Source of the DNA: a virus
Direction: 5' to 3' (one strand)
Virus record (IMG/VR): IMGVR_UViG_3300042906_000949
Coordinates: 1-38,111 of that record
Length of the DNA stretch: 38,111 nt
This document shows positions 1 through 38,111 of this stretch, piece by piece. The notes beneath the pieces are model-generated. The model did not search any database. It was not told where the DNA came from and saw nothing but the letters and a program-made list of their open reading frames with translations. Position 1 is the first letter of the stretch; each line of letters starts with the position of its first letter. The translations under genes and the position numbers were made by a program.

Positions 1-870
1 CGTGGTGATACTAATATTAAGTTTCTTGTAGATAATGGGTGTCATATTTGGGATGGTGATGCTTATAAGAATTATTGTATGTCCTATAAAGATGGGCATG
101 AATTTTATGAGGATGAAACAGTTAAACGTTCATATACGCAAGAAGAATTTACCAACAAAATCAAAACAGATGATGAGTTTGCGAAACAGTGGGGTGAACT
201 CGGTCCTGTATATGGTAAGCAATGGAGAAGTTGGGAAGGATTAAATTCCAACACAGACCAAATCAAAAATCTAATCAACGACCTTAAAACAAATCCTGAC
301 TCTAGACGATTAATGGTTAATGCTTGGAATGTTGGGGAATTAGATTCAATGGTTCTCCCACCTTGTCATTATGGATTTCAAGTGTATACAAAGGAATTAT
401 CATATAAAGAAAGATATCATATTTGGTTTACAAATAATTATGAGGGTGGTATGGAATATTGTGAAGAAATAATGCCTAATTTTGATGATCCGTATTATGT
501 ACCAACACCAACCAGATCAATCTCTTTAATGTGGAATCAAAGATCCGCAGATTTATTTTTAGGGTTACCTTTTAATATCGCCAGTTATGGTTTACTATTA
601 CACATTTTAGGTAGTATAGTAAATATGGTACCTGATGAGTTAGTGGGTAATTTAGGTGATGTTCATTTATATGAGAATCATCTATCACAATCTACTGAAC
701 AACTGAGAAGAGAACCGATCCAACTACCGAAATTGGTTCATATGAAAACAGATGAATTTTATAAATCACTATCTGAAGATACGTCTTTATTTTTTCATTT
801 AAAAAATACGGATTTTGTTGTTGAAAATTATCAATCACACCCAACGATTAAAGCCCCTTTATCAAATTAA
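1..870 (+). CDS. thyA: Thymidylate synthase (5' end beyond window)
   Basis: Makes dTMP from dUMP using methylenetetrahydrofolate, supplying thymidine for phage DNA synthesis (the counterpart of T4 td). The reading frame is open from base 1. The first visible residues, RGDTNIKFLVDNG, already match the ThyA N-terminal region, so the gene starts upstream of the window. Visible signatures are GPVYGKQWRSW, the catalytic cysteine in LPPCHYGFQ, the dUMP-binding stretch NQRSADLFLGLPFN and the GDVHLYENH motif near the C terminus. All are intact, so the enzyme should be active. No intron is visible in the part present, unlike T4 td. It is the first gene of a closely packed plus-strand run of small accessory genes. 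Confidence 0.96.
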   Translation, partial: RGDTNIKFLVDNGCHIWDGDAYKNYCMSYKDGHEFYEDETVKRSYTQEEFTNKIKTDDEFAKQWGELGPVYGKQWRSWEGLNSNTDQIKNLINDLKTNPDSRRLMVNAWNVGELDSMVLPPCHYGFQVYTKELSYKERYHIWFTNNYEGGMEYCEEIMPNFDDPYYVPTPTRSISLMWNQRSADLFLGLPFNIASYGLLLHILGSIVNMVPDELVGNLGDVHLYENHLSQSTEQLRREPIQLPKLVHMKTDEFYKSLSEDTSLFFHLKNTDFVVENYQSHPTIKAPLSN

Positions 871-17838: not shown

Positions 17839-19635
17839 ATGGGACATTTGTTAAACTCAGGTGAAGTCGGAAATATCGGACTAGAACACCTAAAGCAAAT
17901 TAGATCTAAAACTATCTCTAAATGGAACAAATTAGGTTTCTTAGAAGGTTTAAAAGGTCACGTAAAAGAGAACATCGCTCAATTGTATGAAAACCAAGCA
18001 TCTGCTTTGTTGAATGAATCAACTTCTGCAGACTCATCAGGTTCTTTCGAAACTGTAGTTTTCCCAATTGTGAGAAGAGTATTCTCTAAATTATTGGCTA
18101 ACGATATCGTATCAGTACAAGCGATGAACATGCCAATCGGTAAATTATTCTTCTTTGTACCTAAAACATCTGATGGACAGTTTCCATTGAATGGTGATAA
18201 TGGTACTACTAACGGTGCATTACCAGAATGTGTAATCGGAGATTGTACAGATGTATCTGCAACAACATTCTACGCAAAAAGTCTTTACGATTTATATTAC
18301 AACGATGGTTTGTATGATGCATCTAAAGGTAAGCCTACTCTTAACGTTGAGGTTGGTAACGTTAATAACACTGGTAACGTATTAATCCTTTCAGGACTTT
18401 CTGTTGATGATGAATATGCTGCTGGAGCACAAAAAGCGTTAGCGGGTGATAATTCAGTTAGATACCTTAAATTAGGTGTAAAAGGATTTAACAACCAAAA
18501 CGCTGGTAGATTAACAGGACCAGACGGAAATGAGATGGATACTGAATCATTTTTAGCATCACTTAAAGTTGTTGTTAGAGGTGGAGACATTAAAGATAAT
18601 AACGGTAATCTTATTATTGCGAGTGGTGGAGAAGTACCTTTTAGACTTATTACTCAAAAATACGGTAAAGGTATCGTAGATTATAGTAATATCTGTACTG
18701 CAGATGGTTCATTACTTTTAGAAGTAGATTTAACACACCCAACATGTGTGTCATGTTCAGATGCAACACTTGATGGATACATTGGTGCAAATTCTGGTTT
18801 AACTAGAAGTACTAATGCTACTTATTCAGGGATTACATTTGACGTAAGTTGGGTACAATACGCTTCTTTAGAATACTCTACAGAAATGGGTGAGGTTTCT
18901 TTTGAATTGGATGAGGTAGTTGTATCTGTAACTGAAAGAAAACTAAGAGCAACTTGGTCTCCTGAATTAGCACAAGACGTTAGTGCATTCCATAACATCG
19001 ATGCTGAAGCTGAACTTACGGCACTATTATCTGAGCAGGTTGCTGCTGAGATCGATAGAGAGATCTTAAGAGACTTAAGAAGAGGTGCAGCATGGCAATT
19101 GAGATGGGACTATAACGGATGGAAGAGAGCTAACTCTGGCGGTGGTTTCAACGCATACACACAAAAAGAGTGGAATCAAACATTGATTACTAAAATCAAT
19201 CAAGTTTCTGCACAAATTCACAAATCAACTTTGAGAGGTGGCGCTAACTTCGTAGTAGTATCTTCTGAGGTATCAGCAATTTTTGATGACTTAGAATACT
19301 TCCACGTATCTAACGCTTCTCCAGAGCAAGATCAGTACAATATGGGTATTGAGAAAATCGGTTCATTAGGTGGAAGATATACTGTATATCGTGATCCTTA
19401 CGCACCAGCGAACTCAATCATCATTGGACACAAAGGTAAGTCATTGTTAGATACTGGATACATTTACGCTCCGTATGTACCATTACAATTGACTCCAACA
19501 TTACAAAACCCATTCAACTTCGCACCAACGAAGGGGATTATGACTAGATACGCTAAGAAAATGGTTAATAACCGTTTCTATGGTGTAGTAACAGTTGACG
19601 GTGTTGTAACATTCGATATCAACGAATTGAGATAA
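17839..19635 (+). CDS. 23: Major capsid protein (gp23-like)
   Basis: Builds the hexamers of the phage head (HK97 fold). The 598-aa length compares with 521 aa in T4 gp23. After a helical propeptide, LLNE (57-60) followed by STSADSSG marks the likely gp21 cleavage, close to the T4 site after residue 65. Then come VRRVFSKLLANDIVSVQAMNMP, matching the T4 region after the propeptide, a variable insertion domain (about 150-330), ERKLRATWSPELAQDV, and the C-terminal part with DPYAPANSIIIGHKG. Codon use differs from its neighbours, with more C-ending codons, as expected for the most abundant protein. It is followed by a strong terminator. Confidence 0.97.
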   Translation: MGHLLNSGEVGNIGLEHLKQIRSKTISKWNKLGFLEGLKGHVKENIAQLYENQASALLNESTSADSSGSFETVVFPIVRRVFSKLLANDIVSVQAMNMPIGKLFFFVPKTSDGQFPLNGDNGTTNGALPECVIGDCTDVSATTFYAKSLYDLYYNDGLYDASKGKPTLNVEVGNVNNTGNVLILSGLSVDDEYAAGAQKALAGDNSVRYLKLGVKGFNNQNAGRLTGPDGNEMDTESFLASLKVVVRGGDIKDNNGNLIIASGGEVPFRLITQKYGKGIVDYSNICTADGSLLLEVDLTHPTCVSCSDATLDGYIGANSGLTRSTNATYSGITFDVSWVQYASLEYSTEMGEVSFELDEVVVSVTERKLRATWSPELAQDVSAFHNIDAEAELTALLSEQVAAEIDREILRDLRRGAAWQLRWDYNGWKRANSGGGFNAYTQKEWNQTLITKINQVSAQIHKSTLRGGANFVVVSSEVSAIFDDLEYFHVSNASPEQDQYNMGIEKIGSLGGRYTVYRDPYAPANSIIIGHKGKSLLDTGYIYAPYVPLQLTPTLQNPFNFAPTKGIMTRYAKKMVNNRFYGVVTVDGVVTFDINELR

Positions 19636-30679: not shown

Positions 30680-31663
30680 TTAATTGTGAATGTTATAATA
30701 AATTAACCAATAGTCAATCATTTCATCTAACATCGTTTCGAATGTATAATAGGGTAACCATCCTGTGTTTTTAACTAATTTAGATGAATCACCTTTTAAA
30801 TCGTGTAATTCTTCAGGTCTTAAGAATTTTTCATCTTGTTTCACATAGTCAACCCAATCTAACCCTAACCTATTGAAAACATATGTGACAAGCTCTCTAA
30901 CTGAATGTGATGTTCCCGTTGAACATACGAAATCGTCAGGATTTTTTAATTGTAGAATCTCCCACATCGCTTTAACATAATCTTTAGCGTGACCCCAATC
31001 TCTTGTAGCATCAAGATTACCCAATTTTAATTCATTAGACAACCCTAATTTTATCTTAACTGCTTCTTTACATACTTTATTGGTTACGAAGTTTGTACCC
31101 CTTCTTGGGGATTCGTGATTAAATAAAATACCATTAGAAACAAACATACCATATGAGTTTCTGTAGTTACGACAAATATTATAACTAAATACTTTAGCAC
31201 ATCCGTATGGTGAAACTGGATTCATAGGGGTAGTTTCTCTTTGGTACCCATCAGAATCGATTGAGTTACCGAACATTTCTGATGACGATGCTTGATAAAT
31301 TTTAGTGTCGGGTTTGATTAGTTTAATCGACTCAAGGAGATTTAAAGTTCCTAATCCAGTAACATTAGAAGTATATAATGGTTGATCAAATGAAATTCTA
31401 ACATGTGATTGTGCAGCCAAATTATATATTTCATCAGGCATTACTTTCTGTATAACACTAATTAATGATGACATATCCGTTAAATCACCATAATGTAATT
31501 TTACTTTATCATACACATTATCTAACCTAGCAGTTTGATTTTCTGCAACAGAATTTCTTTTTAATATACCGTGAACCACATAACCTTTTTCTAAAAGAAA
31601 TTCTGCCAAATATGAACCATCCTGTCCATTTATTCCAGTTATAAGTGCAATTTTTTTACCCAT
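30680..31663 (-). CDS. gmd: GDP-mannose 4,6-dehydratase
   Basis: Converts GDP-D-mannose to GDP-4-keto-6-deoxymannose, the entry step to GDP-fucose and GDP-colitose. The 327-aa short-chain dehydrogenase (extended type) has the Rossmann motif TGINGQDG (9-16), the catalytic SSSEMFG (126-132), and Tyr153/Lys157 in SPYGCAKVFS. NPVSPYG and RRGTNFVT are also family hallmarks. All catalytic residues are present, so it should be active. Its start overlaps the stop of the dehydratase gene upstream by eight bases, showing one operon. Confidence 0.95.
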   Translation of the reverse strand: MGKKIALITGINGQDGSYLAEFLLEKGYVVHGILKRNSVAENQTARLDNVYDKVKLHYGDLTDMSSLISVIQKVMPDEIYNLAAQSHVRISFDQPLYTSNVTGLGTLNLLESIKLIKPDTKIYQASSSEMFGNSIDSDGYQRETTPMNPVSPYGCAKVFSYNICRNYRNSYGMFVSNGILFNHESPRRGTNFVTNKVCKEAVKIKLGLSNELKLGNLDATRDWGHAKDYVKAMWEILQLKNPDDFVCSTGTSHSVRELVTYVFNRLGLDWVDYVKQDEKFLRPEELHDLKGDSSKLVKNTGWLPYYTFETMLDEMIDYWLIYYNIHN

Positions 31664-32807
31664 TATTAATGATTTTAGTTATATTTAAAATATTTTCTTT
31701 AGTTAAATTTTGATGATTCGGTACATAAAATCCATATTGGTTAATAAATTCACAGTTAGGTAATTTATTAACCCCATATTTTTCAAACCACATAGGTTTT
31801 TTAGACATATCACCAGCAATTAAAGGTCTCACTTCAATATTATTTTCTATTAATTCTTTCACTATTTTATCCCTATACTTTGATACAACAGGAAAGGCAA
31901 AGTTTGAAATAAAATTAATGGGTTCATTTTTTATACTTAATTCATTTATATTAATATTTTTAATATATTCATTAAAATTTTCATTCCTTATTACCGAATA
32001 GTTGTCTAAGTTTTGAATTGATTTAATACCAATAAATGCTTGAAGGTCAGTTGATCTTAAATTAAGTCCTGGTACATAAAAATTATAAAGGGAATCAAAA
32101 TCGTTTGTTGAGTACTTTTCTCTAAGTTCGGTTTGTTTCCATTTAGGTAAATCTCTATCCCAACCATGACTTCTCATCATTAATAATAAATGATAAAAAT
32201 CTTCATCGTCTGTATTGATGAAACCTCCCTCAATGGTACTTAGATGATGCCCAAAATACATAGAGAAGAAAGAGGCAAAACCAAACGTGCCTAAATATTT
32301 AACACCATATTTTGATCCCATACTCTCACATACATCTTCAAGTAAAACAACATCATATTTATCACATAAGTCAACAATTTTTTCCATATCAGGTACTAAA
32401 CCTAAAGGTGAGACTAATATAAAAACAGAGGGGTTGTGTTCTATAAATAATTTTTCTAAATGATTTAAATCACAAGATAAGTCACTTAAATTACAGTCAC
32501 ACATAAATGTTTCCATATTAAGTATCATAGGGGTACTAACATCTGTTGCCCAACTTAATCCAGGAACAATAATCTTATTATTTTTTAATTTTTTAGATTG
32601 TATTAGTGCCGCTAAGGTTAATAGTATTGAGGATGATCCTGAGTTAACAAAAACAGAATACTTAGTACCTATTTTTTTTGCCCATTCATTTTCTAATTCT
32701 ACGGTTAAATCCCCTTTGGTTAATCTAGGTATTTCATCTTGTGATAACCACTCACATAAAGATTTAATAATTTCTTTATTAATTGTATCACTAACTAACT
32801 TTATCAT
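31656..32807 (-). CDS. colD: DegT-fold PLP/PMP-dependent sugar 3-dehydratase (ColD-like)
   Basis: A 383-aa member of the DegT/DnrJ/EryC1/StrS aminotransferase fold. SGSSSILLTLAAL binds the cofactor phosphate and LLEDVCESMG holds the Asp that contacts the pyridine ring. The site that carries the PLP lysine in aminotransferases reads MYFGHHLSTIEGG, so His187 replaces Lys. Loss of the Lys with a His is the hallmark of ColD, which removes the 3-hydroxyl of GDP-4-keto-6-deoxymannose using PMP and glutamate, and of RfbH-type enzymes. With gmd directly downstream and a GDP-fucose-synthase-like gene upstream, ColD is the best call. It is not an ordinary aminotransferase. Confidence 0.8.
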   Translation of the reverse strand: MIKLVSDTINKEIIKSLCEWLSQDEIPRLTKGDLTVELENEWAKKIGTKYSVFVNSGSSSILLTLAALIQSKKLKNNKIIVPGLSWATDVSTPMILNMETFMCDCNLSDLSCDLNHLEKLFIEHNPSVFILVSPLGLVPDMEKIVDLCDKYDVVLLEDVCESMGSKYGVKYLGTFGFASFFSMYFGHHLSTIEGGFINTDDEDFYHLLLMMRSHGWDRDLPKWKQTELREKYSTNDFDSLYNFYVPGLNLRSTDLQAFIGIKSIQNLDNYSVIRNENFNEYIKNININELSIKNEPINFISNFAFPVVSKYRDKIVKELIENNIEVRPLIAGDMSKKPMWFEKYGVNKLPNCEFINQYGFYVPNHQNLTKENILNITKIINNG

Positions 32808-33702
32808 AATAATTTTTATAAACTAATTTTATTCCATCAGATAATGGTATTGGGTTAAATTCTGGTAATAAAGATTTTAATTTTTCAATTGAGACATCTT
32901 TTCTATATTGACCATTAGGTTTTGTATTGTCCCATATAATTTCTAAATGTTCTCCCCCACAAGATTTAAGTGCAATTTCCGACATTTCCTTAATTGATAA
33001 ATTCTCGAAAGAGGCTACATTAAAACTTTCATAAATTTCTTTATCTATGACATCATAGATAATTTTGGCAAAATCATCAGAGTACATAAATTGTCTAAGT
33101 GGTGATCCATCACCGTACAAAGTAATTTTATTCTCATTTTTTTGTTTAGCGTCGAATATTTTTTTAATCAATGCAGTGATAAAATGACTATTATTTTCAC
33201 CATCTTTATCGTCTAATCCATACAAATTACAAGGTGTGAGGTATTGATATTTAGTTCCGTATTGTTTATTATATGCATCTATTTGAACTGCCAAACTTCT
33301 TTTTGCATAACCATAAGAAAAATTAGTTTCAGTTGGTGGGCCTAAATGTAATGATTCCTCTTTCATTGGGTATTCATTGGAAACATCGGGAAAAATACAT
33401 GTACTTAAAATCCCAACAAATCTTTTTACACCATATTTTTTTGCATATTCTACCAATAGTGTATTCATTAAAATATTTTCAGTAAAATATTCTGCGGGTT
33501 TATTAATATTATCAATAATACCACCAACCTTAGCGGCTAAATGGATAACGACATTAGGTTTATATGTTTCATACATATTTTTTACACCATTTTCTGTCGT
33601 TAAATCAAAATCTTTAGACGATAAATAAACTGCATTAGGTAAGTATTTTTTTAAACTTTTACCAACCAAACCAGAACCACCTGTTACTACAATATTTCCC
33701 AT
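32791..33702 (-). CDS. fcl: GDP-sugar epimerase/reductase (GDP-fucose or GDP-colitose synthase-like)
   Basis: A 303-aa extended SDR. The NADP site is TGGSGLVG (7-14). VVIHLAAKVGG, the Ser100/Cys102 pair in ILSTCIFP, the Tyr130/Lys134 pair in SYGYAKRS and a His in NNSHFITALI all match GDP-fucose synthase. It should epimerise C5 and reduce C4. In this context the substrate may be the 3-deoxy keto sugar made by the ColD-like enzyme, as for ColC, giving GDP-L-colitose. ColC and Fcl are homologous and cannot be told apart reliably by eye. It overlaps the ColD-like gene by 17 bases. Confidence 0.88.
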   Translation of the reverse strand: MGNIVVTGGSGLVGKSLKKYLPNAVYLSSKDFDLTTENGVKNMYETYKPNVVIHLAAKVGGIIDNINKPAEYFTENILMNTLLVEYAKKYGVKRFVGILSTCIFPDVSNEYPMKEESLHLGPPTETNFSYGYAKRSLAVQIDAYNKQYGTKYQYLTPCNLYGLDDKDGENNSHFITALIKKIFDAKQKNENKITLYGDGSPLRQFMYSDDFAKIIYDVIDKEIYESFNVASFENLSIKEMSEIALKSCGGEHLEIIWDNTKPNGQYRKDVSIEKLKSLLPEFNPIPLSDGIKLVYKNYYDKVS

Positions 33703-33706
33703 AAAA

Positions 33707-34324
33707 TTATTTTAATGACCAAGCCTCAAACACAAATGGGTAATCATATAATTTTTTGAAATTATTTTTTTCTAAACCCTTTTGTATATTATTCCTTTTT
33801 TCAAGGGCATCTTCAATAAATGTATGAAACTGAACTTGTATGTTGTTAAATTTTAAAATGCTTCCAGTGTCTATCATATTCTCTAATAATGGGAATTCTT
33901 CACCTTCTATATTAATTTGCATTAATTCAACATTATCTCTTTTTATAATTTCCAACAATTCATCTATTGTAATAAAATTAACTGTAATAGGTTTGTCGTT
34001 AGTAAGATATTTTGATGTCCCATCACCATTTAGATATATGACATCAGACTTGTTGGTAGTAGATATACCATAATTTAACACCGTTACTTTAGGGTTATCC
34101 TTAAACTTATCACATAGTTGATCATAAAAATCTTTTATGGGTTCCACTATAGTAATGAATGGGTTATATTTTTCAATAATTAAATCTGCCCATAAACCTA
34201 TGTACCCACCTACATCGACTACCATAGAGTCTTCATTAATATTATAATTTATGGCATGTGTATAATTACCATTATCCGCAAACCATTTTACATTTGATTC
34301 TTGATTTATTAAATTTAAATTCAT
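33707..34324 (-). CDS. FkbM-family methyltransferase
   Basis: A 205-aa SAM-dependent methyltransferase. Motif I is VDVGGYIG (36-43), followed by an acidic residue in TIVEP (Glu61). The FkbM marker LMQINIEGEEFPLLENM is present. This family O-methylates sugars and polyketides. In the cassette it probably methylates a hydroxyl of the deoxysugar or of the growing glycan. The four-base gap to the upstream gene shows common transcription. Confidence 0.85.
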   Translation of the reverse strand: MNLNLINQESNVKWFADNGNYTHAINYNINEDSMVVDVGGYIGLWADLIIEKYNPFITIVEPIKDFYDQLCDKFKDNPKVTVLNYGISTTNKSDVIYLNGDGTSKYLTNDKPITVNFITIDELLEIIKRDNVELMQINIEGEEFPLLENMIDTGSILKFNNIQVQFHTFIEDALEKRNNIQKGLEKNNFKKLYDYPFVFEAWSLK

Positions 34325-34325
34325 T

Positions 34326-35243
34326 TTATTTTATTTTATTTATTTTATCTAAATGAGTTTTGATATTATTGTCATCATCACACCATTTTTTAGCGTATTT
34401 ACCTTTACTTTTTTCCGAAAACATCGGGCAATAATATTCATCACACCCATAAAAAAAGTAGTGGTTTGCTTGTGTCAACCTAGTTTTTTCTAAATCAGTA
34501 ACCCCTTCTACATTACAACCACCATGTAACATATTTGCTGCCCAAATTAATGCTTGCCCCTTTTTTAATGAAACTGGTTTAGTTTTACCATTTTTTGATT
34601 TAATTAAATCAATTAAAAAATTCTCATAGTAACTGTAATTTTCCGCCTCACCATTTTCTACATCATCAGGATGAGTTAATTTTAAACTTTCATAATCATA
34701 AATTTCCCATTTGTGACTGCCAGGGACAATTTGTAGTGTACCATTTTCCTCATTAACATCTTCTAAAGCAACCCAAACTCCACACATCCATAACTGAGGT
34801 ACACTATGAAAATGAATCGTATCACTATGGAGTGGTTGATTTGATCCCTTAATAAAGTTTATTGTTGAGAATGGGAAAGGATCTTTACCGTATAATAATT
34901 TTAATACATTAATAAGTTTTTCATTGACAGTTAACTCCGCAATATTCTTACTATTTTTCCATTCCTCAAAAATTCGTTTAGATGGGGTGTACGTCACATG
35001 TTCAGGATGAAAAACAGTTTTTTCATTCTCCAAAGCAATATACATATCCTTAACCACATTATCGATAACGTCATCAGTTAAATTTAAATCTATTACAACA
35101 TACCCTTCTTCGTGATATTGTTGACATATTTTTTTTTGTTCATCACTTAAATCATTTGAGTTTTCTAATAAATCATAAAAAAATGGGGATTCTACCCAAG
35201 GAATATTCAATGCACTTTTATCCGTATAAAATTTTGATTTCAT
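34326..35243 (-). CDS. Phytanoyl-CoA dioxygenase (PhyH)-like Fe/2OG oxygenase
   Basis: A 305-aa non-haem iron, 2-oxoglutarate-dependent dioxygenase. The facial triad is His139 and Asp141 (LHSDTIHFHS) with His230 (MLHGG), and Arg245 (KTRLTQ) is placed to bind 2-oxoglutarate. QIVPGSHKWE is a common PhyH family stretch. Phage PhyH proteins are often found in sugar or LPS cassettes and may hydroxylate or remodel a sugar; the true substrate is unknown. It is tightly packed with the methyltransferase and acetyltransferase genes. Confidence 0.87.
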   Translation of the reverse strand: MKSKFYTDKSALNIPWVESPFFYDLLENSNDLSDEQKKICQQYHEEGYVVIDLNLTDDVIDNVVKDMYIALENEKTVFHPEHVTYTPSKRIFEEWKNSKNIAELTVNEKLINVLKLLYGKDPFPFSTINFIKGSNQPLHSDTIHFHSVPQLWMCGVWVALEDVNEENGTLQIVPGSHKWEIYDYESLKLTHPDDVENGEAENYSYYENFLIDLIKSKNGKTKPVSLKKGQALIWAANMLHGGCNVEGVTDLEKTRLTQANHYFFYGCDEYYCPMFSEKSKGKYAKKWCDDDNNIKTHLDKINKIK

Positions 35244-35245
35244 AT

Positions 35246-35776
35246 TTATTTATTTTTTAGTTCTTCATAATATTTTTTTATTTCACCCATATTTCTTTTT
35301 TTTATCGGTTTAGCGGGATTACCAACATATATTGTCCACGGTTCAGTAGTTTTAGTAACTAATGAATTTGCACCTATTACAGAACCTTCTGACAATGTAA
35401 CACCAGGTAATACAACAGAATTTGTACCTAATATTGAAAATTCTTCAAAAATCACATCTTCTATTACTTCTTTTCTGTACTCTTTTGGTACTTGAGGGTT
35501 GGTTAATGTTCCCGAATTAAAGTCTGCCCCACCCGCAATAACTCTAGCACCAGCAGCCATACCACTATGATCTCTCATTATAACTTTACTTTCCGCACCA
35601 CCTATAATACTACAATTAGGTGCAATATGGACATAATCACCTATTTCCGCATTTGTTGTTATAGTAACAAATTGGTCGATTGCAACATGATTACCTAAAG
35701 TAATTAAATGTGGTCTTGTTATCACACATAAATTAGATACTCTTACATCTTCACCTATTTTTTTAAATTCCATCAT
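35246..35776 (-). CDS. Hexapeptide-repeat (left-handed beta-helix) acyltransferase
   Basis: A 176-aa protein with the imperfect hexapeptide repeats of the LbH fold (for example VSNLCVITRPHLITLGNHVAIDQ; EIGDYVHIAPNCSIIGG; FEEFSILGTNSVVLPG; GSVIGANSLVT). A C-terminal IYVGNPAKPIKKR motif follows, typical of sugar O-acetyltransferases. The catalytic His is probably in MRDHSGMAAGA. It would transfer an acetyl or other acyl group to the sugar. The start overlaps the stop of the SDR gene (ATGA). Confidence 0.88.
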   Translation of the reverse strand: MMEFKKIGEDVRVSNLCVITRPHLITLGNHVAIDQFVTITTNAEIGDYVHIAPNCSIIGGAESKVIMRDHSGMAAGARVIAGGADFNSGTLTNPQVPKEYRKEVIEDVIFEEFSILGTNSVVLPGVTLSEGSVIGANSLVTKTTEPWTIYVGNPAKPIKKRNMGEIKKYYEELKNK

Positions 35777-36420
35777 AATCCGCCTGTGAGTTTTATTGTT
35801 GTTCCATTAATATATTCATTATCAATTAAAAATTCTATAGTTTTAGCAATTTCATCTGGTCTTCCTAATCTTTTTGTTGGGATACCCTCAATAGTTTTTT
35901 TAATGAATTCTTCTGGTAACGTATAGGTTAATCCTCCATCCATATACCCTAGTTGGATACAGTTTGCAGTAATGTTTTTATTCGCATTCTCTAAACAAAT
36001 TGTTTTAACTATATTTTCATAGTATGATTTACACGCGGCGTATACACTGGTTCCAATGACATTTTTGTCTACCGTTATACTAGATGATAAAATAATCCTG
36101 CCAAAATTACGTTCTCTCATTTTACTTAAACATTTAGAAATTATTTTAGTAACTGAAAGAATATTCACTTCAATTTGGTTTGTTAATTCATCGAAATTAC
36201 TCTCATTATATTTGTGTAGAAAACTATTGAAGTTATAGTTTGTGAATAGTACTAAAACATCTACATTTTCAATGGTATTAAAAAAAGATGTTATACTTAG
36301 TTCATCTAAAAAATTAACATCATTACTACCTAAAATTTTAATATCATAATTATCTAAATGTTTAATTACTTGTGTACCTAAACCACCAGTACCTCCAAAA
36401 AATAAAATTGATTTTTTCAT
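35773..36420 (-). CDS. Short-chain dehydrogenase/reductase (classical SDR)
   Basis: A 215-aa NAD(P)-dependent reductase with GGTGGLG (9-15) cofactor loop, catalytic Ser in ILSSSI (112-114) and Tyr127/Lys131 in YAACK. RLGRPDEIAKTIEFLI and INGTTIKLTGGL at the C terminus are FabG-like. It is shorter than the usual 245 aa. The substrate is not predictable; in this cassette a keto-sugar is likely. It lies between the HxRRxD transferase and the acyltransferase. Confidence 0.85.
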   Translation of the reverse strand: MKKSILFFGGTGGLGTQVIKHLDNYDIKILGSNDVNFLDELSITSFFNTIENVDVLVLFTNYNFNSFLHKYNESNFDELTNQIEVNILSVTKIISKCLSKMRERNFGRIILSSSITVDKNVIGTSVYAACKSYYENIVKTICLENANKNITANCIQLGYMDGGLTYTLPEEFIKKTIEGIPTKRLGRPDEIAKTIEFLIDNEYINGTTIKLTGGL

Positions 36421-36432
36421 ATTTAAATTATA

Positions 36433-37242
36433 TTATATTTCGTCAAAATAGTAAACATTATCATATTTATTTCCATTAAAAAAAATAGAGCCGTATGATA
36501 CTCCAGAAATACTACACAAAAGACTATTACATTTAGAAAGGTTCAAAGAGTCAATTAATACTTCTTTACCCATTAAATACCTATGGTATTTTCTTTCATT
36601 AGTTATTATTCGATGATCGTCATTCCTTCCGATTCTAAAACATTCCTGATAAATTAAAATTTCTGGAATTCTACTTTTAAAATATTCAAAAATTTCTGTT
36701 TCTTCAGTTGCCAAATAAATTTTTTCAAACCCATATTTTTCATAAATTTCCATTGTTTTTTTAAAATAATCTTCGGTGTTTCTAGAAAATAAGTATTCTG
36801 GGTGATATGTTCCCATATCACTTCTTCGGCAATGAACTCCCAATGTTTTATATTCACTTATTTCTTTTTTAACTGAGTTTAAAATTTCGGGTTTTATTTT
36901 CAAATATTTATTTATTGAATTGTTAATATTAATAACAACATCTTTGTTTCTAAATATTTTTTGTCCTCCAGGTGGATAGTTTTCATAATCAATAGGACAA
37001 TACTGATGTTCATGTTTAATCGCCTCCTCAACCGTTAGTTCTTGATCAAAATAATAATCAAAAGGATTCTCACCCATTTCACTATCATAATACTCCACTT
37101 TCGGGTTCGACCAATCAACAATAGGTATTAAATTGTTATCACTACAATATTTTAATCCCCCAAAAACAGCATTAAGGTATGCAAAATAACCTGCACCCCT
37201 ATGTCTATAATTAATAATATAATATTTAGATTGTTCTTTCAT
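36433..37242 (-). CDS. Fucosyltransferase-like GDP-sugar transferase
   Basis: A 269-aa protein with the HxRRxD motif: GVHCRRSDMG, with His137, Arg139, Arg140 and Asp142. This motif binds the GDP part of GDP-fucose in alpha-1,6-fucosyltransferases, NodZ and protein O-fucosyltransferases. An N-terminal RHRGAGYFAYLNAVFGGLKY matches the start of this fold. No membrane anchor is seen. GDP-L-colitose is 3-deoxy GDP-fucose, so this enzyme could transfer colitose or fucose. The acceptor (virion protein, host glycan) is unknown. It overlaps the upstream epimerase gene by 17 bases. Confidence 0.82.
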   Translation of the reverse strand: MKEQSKYYIINYRHRGAGYFAYLNAVFGGLKYCSDNNLIPIVDWSNPKVEYYDSEMGENPFDYYFDQELTVEEAIKHEHQYCPIDYENYPPGGQKIFRNKDVVININNSINKYLKIKPEILNSVKKEISEYKTLGVHCRRSDMGTYHPEYLFSRNTEDYFKKTMEIYEKYGFEKIYLATEETEIFEYFKSRIPEILIYQECFRIGRNDDHRIITNERKYHRYLMGKEVLIDSLNLSKCNSLLCSISGVSYGSIFFNGNKYDNVYYFDEI

Positions 37243-38111
37243 AATATTCGATTGTTTTTTTTATTCCTTCTATATAATCTGTAAACACAAAATCACTAAA
37301 ACTTTGTTTAAATTTACTGTTACCTAAAATTTTAATTGGTGCACCATCTTGTTTAGTTAAATCATTAACTATCTCCACATCATAACCCATTATTGTTTTA
37401 ATAGTATTCACACTATCAATAATACTCACACCATTTTCTTTACCAAAATTAAGTGGGTTTGGTAAATCGTGTTTACCATTATCAATGATATCTTTAATAA
37501 GTCTGGCAGCATCCTCCATATATAACCATTCTCTAATTGGTGTACCAGTGCCCCACACCACAAATTCTTTATCTCCTCTTCGTTTCGATTCTATCATTCG
37601 TATAATTAAACCATTTAATGCGTGTGTTTTATGAACATCCGTGTAATCTAAAGGTCCATAAGCATTTGCTAATATTAAATTAATAGTTTTAATACCGTAT
37701 TGTTTTCTATATGTCTCAGAAAGAATAAACCCTAATTTTTTAGGATTACCGTAGGACTCTACAGATTGGTGTATTACACCGTCCCACCAGTTTTCTTCAT
37801 TTTGTATATCTATAATTCCTGGATAAGAACAATTTGATATGGGATTAATTATTATTATGTTATCATTTACCTCTTTTACTGCCCTATATAAATTAATGTA
37901 CATTAATGAATTGTCATGACAAACATCTGCACAATTTTTTGCCACATAATCCATACTACCAACATGTGCCGCAGCATTTATGATATAATCTGGATTTATA
38001 GACTCTATTTTATTTTTTAAATTTTCAAAGTTTAGTAAATCGCAACCTGTACGTTTAGATTCATTAAATAATTCATATTTTGAATCTTTAAACGCTTCAT
38101 TAATGTTTTTA
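37226..38111 (-). CDS. Second GDP-fucose-synthase-like SDR (5' end beyond window)
   Basis: The frame stays open to the window end, so the visible 294 codons are partial; the in-frame Met at 37954 is not the true start because IINAAAHVGSMDY around it is conserved SDR core. Visible signatures are the Cys in SNCSYPG, Tyr/Lys in SYGNPKKLG, NAYGPLDY, and a His in KTHALNGLI. The Cys, Tyr, Lys and His match GDP-fucose synthase. It is distinct from the copy at 32791-33702, so the cassette has two epimerase/reductases; they may act on different keto-sugars. Confidence 0.85.
   Translation of the reverse strand, partial: KNINEAFKDSKYELFNESKRTGCDLLNFENLKNKIESINPDYIINAAAHVGSMDYVAKNCADVCHDNSLMYINLYRAVKEVNDNIIIINPISNCSYPGIIDIQNEENWWDGVIHQSVESYGNPKKLGFILSETYRKQYGIKTINLILANAYGPLDYTDVHKTHALNGLIIRMIESKRRGDKEFVVWGTGTPIREWLYMEDAARLIKDIIDNGKHDLPNPLNFGKENGVSIIDSVNTIKTIMGYDVEIVNDLTKQDGAPIKILGNSKFKQSFSDFVFTDYIEGIKKTIEYYERTI

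Follow-up and report, generated by a model that had tools for sequence, protein, structure and literature searches.

The enzymes and the pathway that lead from guanosine diphosphate (GDP)-mannose to the 3,6-dideoxyhexose L-colitose are known in bacteria, as in Escherichia coli O55 and O111, which use Gmd, ColD (WbdK) and ColC. In the O55 cluster the ColD gene adjoins a gene of the GDP-fucose-synthase family, which we take to be ColC, a name that the record itself does not carry. Phage gmd and fcl genes have also been described: passages of a paper on cyanophage S-SCSM1 report gmd, fcl, NodZ and alpha-1,2-fucosyltransferase genes, with the product read as GDP-fucose, whereas these passages name no 3-dehydratase and the word aminotransferase is absent from the main text (PMC9602691). 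Here we analysed a virus record of 38,111 bases (IMGVR_UViG_3300042906_000949; this whole stretch is called the window below), in which a minus-strand operon encodes, by family, the same three enzyme activities as in E. coli O55 and O111. We consider it fairly likely that this operon lets the phage turn GDP-mannose of the host into a GDP-3,6-dideoxyhexose and that the sugar decorates virion proteins. As far as the open-access literature was searched, no work on phage colitose or phage ColD was found among the matches listed, and the ColD-type assignment, its wide occurrence among T4-type phages and the absence of export genes appear to be new.

Genes and proposed route

The first-pass annotation had read four minus-strand genes of the window as gmd, a DegT-fold protein whose pyridoxal 5'-phosphate (PLP) lysine is replaced by His, a GDP-fucose-synthase-like epimerase/reductase and an HxRRxD transferase. 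All four were found to be intact open reading frames (ORFs) with matches to these families, as follows:

30680..31663, minus strand: gmd, GDP-mannose 4,6-dehydratase (step 1); Pfam GDP_Man_Dehyd, 9.7e-118
31656..32807, minus strand: predicted ColD-type PLP- or pyridoxamine 5'-phosphate (PMP)-dependent 3-dehydratase (step 2); phmmer, tree and Foldseek
32244..32249, minus strand: codons of His187-His188, with His187 in place of the PLP lysine (ColD H188); alignments
32791..33702, minus strand: Fcl/ColC-type epimerase/4-reductase (steps 3 and 4); NF047922, 1.9e-59
36433..37242, minus strand: GT23-like (FUT8/NodZ fold) glycosyltransferase, candidate for sugar transfer; FUT8 Pfam, 3.6e-5, and Foldseek
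36817..36834, minus strand: HCRRSD motif of the GT23-like transferase; alignment, positions from the sequence

The reductase and ColD-like genes overlap end to start at 32791-32807, and the ColD-like and gmd genes at 31656-31663, which suggests that the three are carried on one transcript. Head genes of the T4 type are present in the window, with matches to phrog_138 (major head protein, 2.1e-66), phrog_213 (portal) and phrog_2 (terminase), and the earlier reading of the virus as a T4-type phage is borne out by them.

In the proposed route, Gmd would convert host GDP-mannose to GDP-4-keto-6-deoxymannose (step 1), and the ColD-type enzyme would take off the 3-hydroxyl with PMP, with His187 as the acid/base and glutamate regenerating the cofactor (step 2). 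The Fcl/ColC-type enzyme would then invert C5 and reduce C4, most likely giving GDP-L-colitose (steps 3 and 4). A fucosyltransferase-type enzyme, either the GT23-like protein or a GT11 or GT10 protein encoded beyond the window, would transfer the sugar in the cytoplasm, most likely to a virion protein, and the products of neighbouring genes may add methyl and acyl groups and oxidative trimming. Sequence shows which families the enzymes belong to, their active sites, how the module recurs, that it is under purifying selection and that the export families searched for are missing; the exact sugar, the match between donor and transferase, and the acceptor are inferred.

The His-type DegT protein

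With high confidence, the 31656-32807 protein can be assigned to the ColD type and is predicted to carry out 3-deoxygenation. It matches the Pfam DegT family (2.2e-48), and its four best phmmer matches among solved structures were all ColD entries, from 2.6e-57 (2gms) to 5.5e-56, followed by RfbH (3.1e-25) and perosamine synthetase (5e-21). His187, the first H of FGHH, lies at the PLP-lysine position and corresponds to ColD H188, a position taken from the H188N and H188K structure entries. According to passages of PMC8987622, the His-for-Lys exchange is the most important difference from aminotransferases in this enzyme group. The predicted structure, with a mean predicted local distance difference test (pLDDT) score of 77 and an active-site loop (176-191) below 50, returned only ColD at Foldseek ranks 1-12, with template modelling (TM) scores of 0.76-0.80. 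ColD was the best match by sequence as well as by fold in these family searches and structure predictions, both of which had been proposed earlier for this protein.

Relatives were gathered by scans with a broader alignment; the viral scan confirmed at least 365 stretches, of which the best 80 were kept, and the counts of both the viral and the bacterial survey are lower bounds. In all, at least 97 viral loci yielded 75 distinct ColD-type proteins after 22 loci were dropped as identical proteins, and 78 of 80 bacterial loci remained after two were dropped in which no ColD frame matched over more than 250 amino acids. His occupied the lysine position in all 75 viral proteins, a count that is partly built in because one of the two search patterns includes the catalytic His; 18 of the 75 were reachable only by this pattern, and the remaining 57 all had His as well.

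Phylogeny had been singled out beforehand as a check that could refute the assignment, and its outcome supported ColD. The His-type clade was recovered with a support of 100; inside it, a clade with a support of 98 unites the window protein and E. coli O55 ColD, separate from all 14 Lys-type rows and from nine RfbH-like rows. This was a quick tree of 88 rows, with support from the Shimodaira-Hasegawa-like approximate likelihood ratio test (SH-aLRT) only and rooted by choice on the 14 Lys-type rows. It sampled 25 of the 74 other viral and 36 of the 78 bacterial survey proteins, and its Lys-type and RfbH-like rows are uncharacterised DegT proteins from fetched loci, with no characterised aminotransferase or RfbH among the rows; the O55 ColD reference agrees by eye with the ColD chain 2gms. 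The lysine position was His in 28/28 viral and 37/37 bacterial rows of the ColD clade and Lys in 14/14 Lys-type rows. Except for two Synechococcus phage rows, the viral rows formed one group (support 85) that includes one row from a Blastocatellia metagenome-assembled genome (MAG), and Pelagibacter, Prochlorococcus and a few other bacterial rows were found beside it. The MAG row is the ColD-type gene at L027:1-1062, and its contig is perhaps a phage contig binned with the MAG.

The DegT family membership, the aminotransferase annotation in RefSeq cyanophages and the name aminotransferase given to PHROG 3139 would fit a perosamine-type aminotransferase in which His is incidental. We regard this as very improbable and rejected it, because His replaces the catalytic Lys in every one of the 57 distinct viral proteins that the search could reach with no help from the His-bearing pattern, because ColD is the best match by sequence and fold in searches that did include characterised aminotransferases, and because of the placement in the tree.

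An identity with RfbH or E1, the cytidine diphosphate (CDP)-6-deoxyglucose 3-dehydratases, was also rejected. These enzymes share the DegT fold and the His-for-Lys exchange with the window protein, and passages of PMC8987622 report a [2Fe-2S] cluster in E1 and SpnQ that is absent in ColD, held in E1 by four cysteines and served by a reductase. In contrast, where RfbH (3bcx) has its cysteine-rich stretch, the aligned part of the window protein is free of cysteine, the comparison being limited to that region, and in this it resembles O55/O111 ColD, which has the His-type PLP fold without such a stretch. It scored 155 bits on the curated RfbH model against a cut-off of 423 and stands apart in the tree. 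A cysteine-bearing RfbH-like His-type dehydratase was observed elsewhere, in Synechococcus phage S-B05 (L024:7827-9122, 360 bits against the same cut-off of 423), with relatives in L142, L149 and L025, and from these sequences phages may hold both classes of 3-dehydratase.

Recurrence, selection and the sugar made

A scan with the window protein retrieved 17 IMG/VR loci with DegT relatives. In 16 of them the DegT protein was 67-73% identical to that of the window and gmd was located no more than one gene away, and the remaining locus (L001), which shares 14.5 kb with the window at 99.9% identity, represents the same virus and not an independent case. Within 6 kb of the 75 viral ColD-type genes, gmd was found at 59, an Fcl-type reductase gene at 60, both at 48 and a GT11-like gene at 40; gmd and the reductase gene were both present at 41 of the 61 loci with more than 1.1 kb on each side. 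Sixteen longer records, which include the window's own virus and two records sharing one identical ColD protein, contained the T4 head protein in 13 cases (the match in G004 being weak and interrupted by a stop), the gmd family in 15 and the Fcl family in all 16, with a single Fcl match in seven.

In the Synechococcus phages S-CAM7 and ACG-2014f, gmd, fcl and a gene for a His-type DegT protein are consecutive, with glycosyltransferase and tail fibre genes after them, and gmd of ACG-2014f passes the TIGR01472 cut-off with 559 bits. They differ from the window in that their DegT proteins form a separate branch within the ColD clade and their reductase groups with Fcl. The DegT protein is annotated there as an aminotransferase or a hypothetical protein, and two S-CAM7 records already annotate a CDP-4-keto-6-deoxy-D-glucose-3-dehydrase. 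The ColD-like step that had been proposed for this T4-type phage is thus supported by the sequence but not unique to it, with many relatives and one phage in which a 3-dehydrase had already been named.

In 20 close pairs, the ratio of nonsynonymous to synonymous substitution rates (dN/dS) had a median of 0.08 and a maximum of 0.12, which indicates that the putative colitose module is under strong purifying selection. For the large lipopolysaccharide (LPS)-like clusters of T4-type cyanophages, a passage of a 2010 paper gave no decision between a function and a role as stuffer (PMC3037559). That the module studied here is functionless cargo DNA filling the head is nonetheless highly improbable, given a dN/dS of about 0.08 in the 20 pairs and the conserved active sites; the selection and conservation data speak for a function.

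The substrate assignment depends on Gmd. The Gmd of the window is 46% identical to that of E. coli O55, and of its 11 matches at or below 1e-40 among solved structures, 10 are named GDP-mannose dehydratase, while the best (5uzh, 8e-98) is only code-named. None of the 16 phage records had a match over the cut-off to the GMP-PMI family TIGR01479, with weak partial matches in three, so GDP-mannose from the host is probably still needed.

The reductase at 32791-33702 scored 202 bits on the NF047922 GDP-fucose synthase model against a cut-off of 500, and it is 34% identical to O55 ColC (149 bits) and 27% to E. coli Fcl (143 bits). Its S100, C102, Y130, K134 and H173 align with Fcl and ColC residues, and we take S, C, Y, K and H, known from work on Fcl, to be the catalytic set. 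Cys, Tyr, Lys and His were kept in all 26 viral reductase rows, with Ser in 23 and Thr in three. The reductase keeps these residues but falls in a phage-only clade, so that GDP-L-colitose is a likely product as judged from sequence, and we infer its final stereochemistry. Of the complete dideoxyhexose route suggested earlier, Gmd, the ColD-type enzyme, a reductase with catalytic residues and a GDP-fucose-type transferase fold could be upheld, whereas a reductase of the ColC clade could not. At one locus, L013:6989-9152, the ColD-type gene was observed with a different NAD-dependent epimerase-type neighbour replacing the Fcl type, and the product there may differ.

Several points weigh against this reading. 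An attempt to place the window reductase with ColC did not succeed: in a quick tree with SH-aLRT support only, built from 22 of 44 viral and all 33 bacterial adjacent reductases, it fell in a phage-only clade outside ColC. Bacterial reductases adjoining ColD-type genes were spread over this tree, some on the ColC side and others on the Fcl side, so that the clade alone leaves the product unsettled. Two phage reductase clades, or the different enzyme of L013, adjoin the dehydratase, and the sugar may therefore differ between phages; moreover, Fcl alone could turn the same intermediate into GDP-L-fucose. The ColD-type protein is 32% identical to ColD, and Campylobacter enzymes that are 62-67% identical to ColD act on GDP-heptose, as passages of PMC10440746 report, so the substrate assignment rests on the Gmd partner. 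The window Gmd itself reached 397 bits on TIGR01472, 18 below the curated cut-off of 415, which was passed in four of the 16 longer records. Gmd was also missing within 6 kb at 16 of the 75 loci, some of them cut contigs, and longer record G010 (with L159) had no gmd match at all. The His-bearing search pattern described above belongs on this side as well.

These points bear on the alternative that another GDP-sugar is made, such as a 3,6-dideoxy-D-hexose whose C5 is not inverted, a dideoxyheptose, or fucose and colitose together. The GDP-heptose activity of ColD relatives, the two reductase clades with the one different partner, and the possibility that one reductase works either ahead of ColD or behind it would all suit it. 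We nevertheless judge it rather unlikely, since the epimerase Cys and His are kept in 26/26 viral rows, the Gmd partner resembles O55 Gmd and matches solved Gmds, and no heptose-specific family appeared in general neighbour scans, although no search was aimed at heptose families. On the sequence evidence, colitose is the likely product.

Transferases, neighbouring genes and the acceptor

The HCRRSD motif of the 36433-37242 transferase fits HxRRxD. The protein scored 23.2 bits on FUT8_N_cat against a Pfam gathering score of 27.6 and was accordingly filed as GT23-like and not as a member. Its model (mean pLDDT 78, built with six sequences) returned only FUT8 or NodZ at Foldseek ranks 1-24, the best at 4.4e-7, with TM scores to the query of 0.49-0.61. 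A scan with this transferase found only a contig of the same virus, and distant homologues came from the ColD loci. The contig L107, which is 99.9% identical to the window across 7.7 kb, carries genes of the families GT11 (5.5e-18) and GT10 (1.6e-8) just upstream, past the window edge. GT23, GT11 and GT10 are families known for GDP-fucose, and such fucosyltransferase-type families make GDP-L-colitose a plausible donor. Likewise, O55 has an alpha-1,2-fucosyltransferase gene and the phages have GT11 genes.

From the window edge, the minus-strand order is a second, edge-cut Fcl-like reductase gene, the HxRRxD transferase, a short-chain dehydrogenase/reductase, a hexapeptide transferase, PhyH, an FkbM methyltransferase, the Fcl/ColC-type reductase, the His-type DegT gene, gmd and then phoH. 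The four genes between the named ones, which the first-pass annotation had passed over, and the edge-cut gene are:

33707..34324, minus strand: FkbM-type methyltransferase; TIGR01444, 51.6 bits against a cut-off of 37.7
34326..35243, minus strand: PhyH-type oxygenase; Pfam PhyH, 2.7e-21
35246..35776, minus strand: hexapeptide-repeat acyltransferase; Pfam Hexapep, 1.3e-14
35773..36420, minus strand: short-chain dehydrogenase/reductase; Pfam adh_short_C2, 6.6e-23
37226..38110, minus strand: second Fcl-like reductase, cut at the window edge; NF047922, 1.9e-40

The second Fcl-like reductase is complete (308 amino acids) at L107:3752-4678, beside a Lys-type DegT aminotransferase. This pair, located at L107:2658-4678 just past the window edge, suggests that the cluster has another branch, leading to an amino sugar. 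An asparagine-synthase-like gene was observed within a phage glycan cluster at L188:2423-3748, with similar-sized ORFs, compared by size only, in L189 to L192. Outside the cluster, the major head protein (window positions 17839-19635) matched phrog_138 in two separate stretches, likewise in relatives of several records, which suggests an inserted domain.

The viral clusters apparently lack the export genes that were searched for. Counted by a simple hydropathy window, genes with at least seven membrane segments within 6 kb of the ColD gene numbered 0 of 1043 in viruses versus 76 of 881 in bacteria, where 44 of 78 loci had such a multi-pass gene, and genes with at least four segments numbered 1 of 1043 (852 kb) versus 107 of 881 (921 kb). 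The flippase family PF01943 was found in 0/16 phage records, and in neither S-CAM7 nor ACG-2014f, versus 13/14 control genomes; the initiating transferase PF02397 in 0/16 versus 9/14; and the ABC (ATP-binding cassette) exporter PF01061 in 0/16 versus 13/14 over the cut-off, the controls being whole cellular genomes and far larger than the phage records. O55, in contrast, has mannose-phosphate and flippase genes, neither of which was found with the phage operon, and also a polymerase gene, a family that itself was not searched for in the phage records. The searches thus gave neither a flippase nor an ABC exporter nor an enzyme that starts a glycan on a lipid carrier, and a virion protein in the cytoplasm is the most likely acceptor, a reading to which we give somewhat better than an even chance. 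Glycans on capsid and tail tube proteins of mycobacteriophages (Freeman et al. 2023, via PMC12619734) offer a precedent, although the passages of PMC12619734 name no dideoxyhexose route.

Virion coating and a change of host glycans had both been offered as roles earlier, and the first fits better. In the second, phage GDP-L-colitose would alter the host surface (LPS or capsule) through the host flippase and ligase, for example excluding other phages. Host enzymes could indeed export the product, GT11-like genes are also found near bacterial ColD genes (10/78 loci), and passages of a pelagimyophage paper prefer an O-chain change for its phage glycosyltransferases (PMC7029224). Yet the viral genes come with no flippase, ABC exporter, initiating transferase or protein of at least seven segments, in contrast to the multi-pass genes of the bacterial loci, and we think a host-surface role comparatively unlikely.

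A cytoplasmic acceptor would also be compatible with glycosylation of phage DNA instead of protein, and sugar-modified cytosine occurs in T4-like phages according to the RB69 paper (PMC6024577). This is quite improbable here. The multi-gene cluster with PhyH, FkbM and acyltransferase genes is unlike the DNA sugar routes commonly known, and window positions 1-870 encode a thymidylate synthase (TIGR03284, 228 bits against a cut-off of 108), no search having been aimed at base-hydroxymethylating enzymes.

In four of five extended clusters, the genes keep to one strand as far as large ORFs (765 to 1972 amino acids) that stand divergently. Only one of these ORFs, that of 1972 amino acids at L191:11317-17235, which is divergent at the end of a glycan cluster, gave an informative family match, to DUF285 repeats. 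The large ORFs can therefore be considered candidates only and not named as acceptors, which counts against the virion-protein reading, as do the moderate fit of the transferase model to FUT8/NodZ (root-mean-square deviation 7-9.5 A in ranks 1-24) and the possibility that parts of the phage genomes are missing from the records and that export is left to enzymes of the host. Taken to the whole group, T4-type phages may build glycans of L-colitose or related 3,6-dideoxyhexoses in the cytoplasm and put them on tail or capsid proteins of their own, with lineages swapping reductases and transferases and so changing the glycan; we put this forward tentatively, as somewhat short of an even chance.

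For one cyanophage-style LPS-like module, each step towards a named sugar can now be assigned from sequence, and the module recurs in dozens of phage contigs. The question left by the earlier cyanophage work becomes one of direct tests of which sugar is made and on what acceptor. If the sugar is on the virion, it would form a viral glycan of a new kind that probably affects adsorption or recognition, and the module would represent a virus-specific glycoprotein system that uses a sugar so far linked to bacterial O-antigens.

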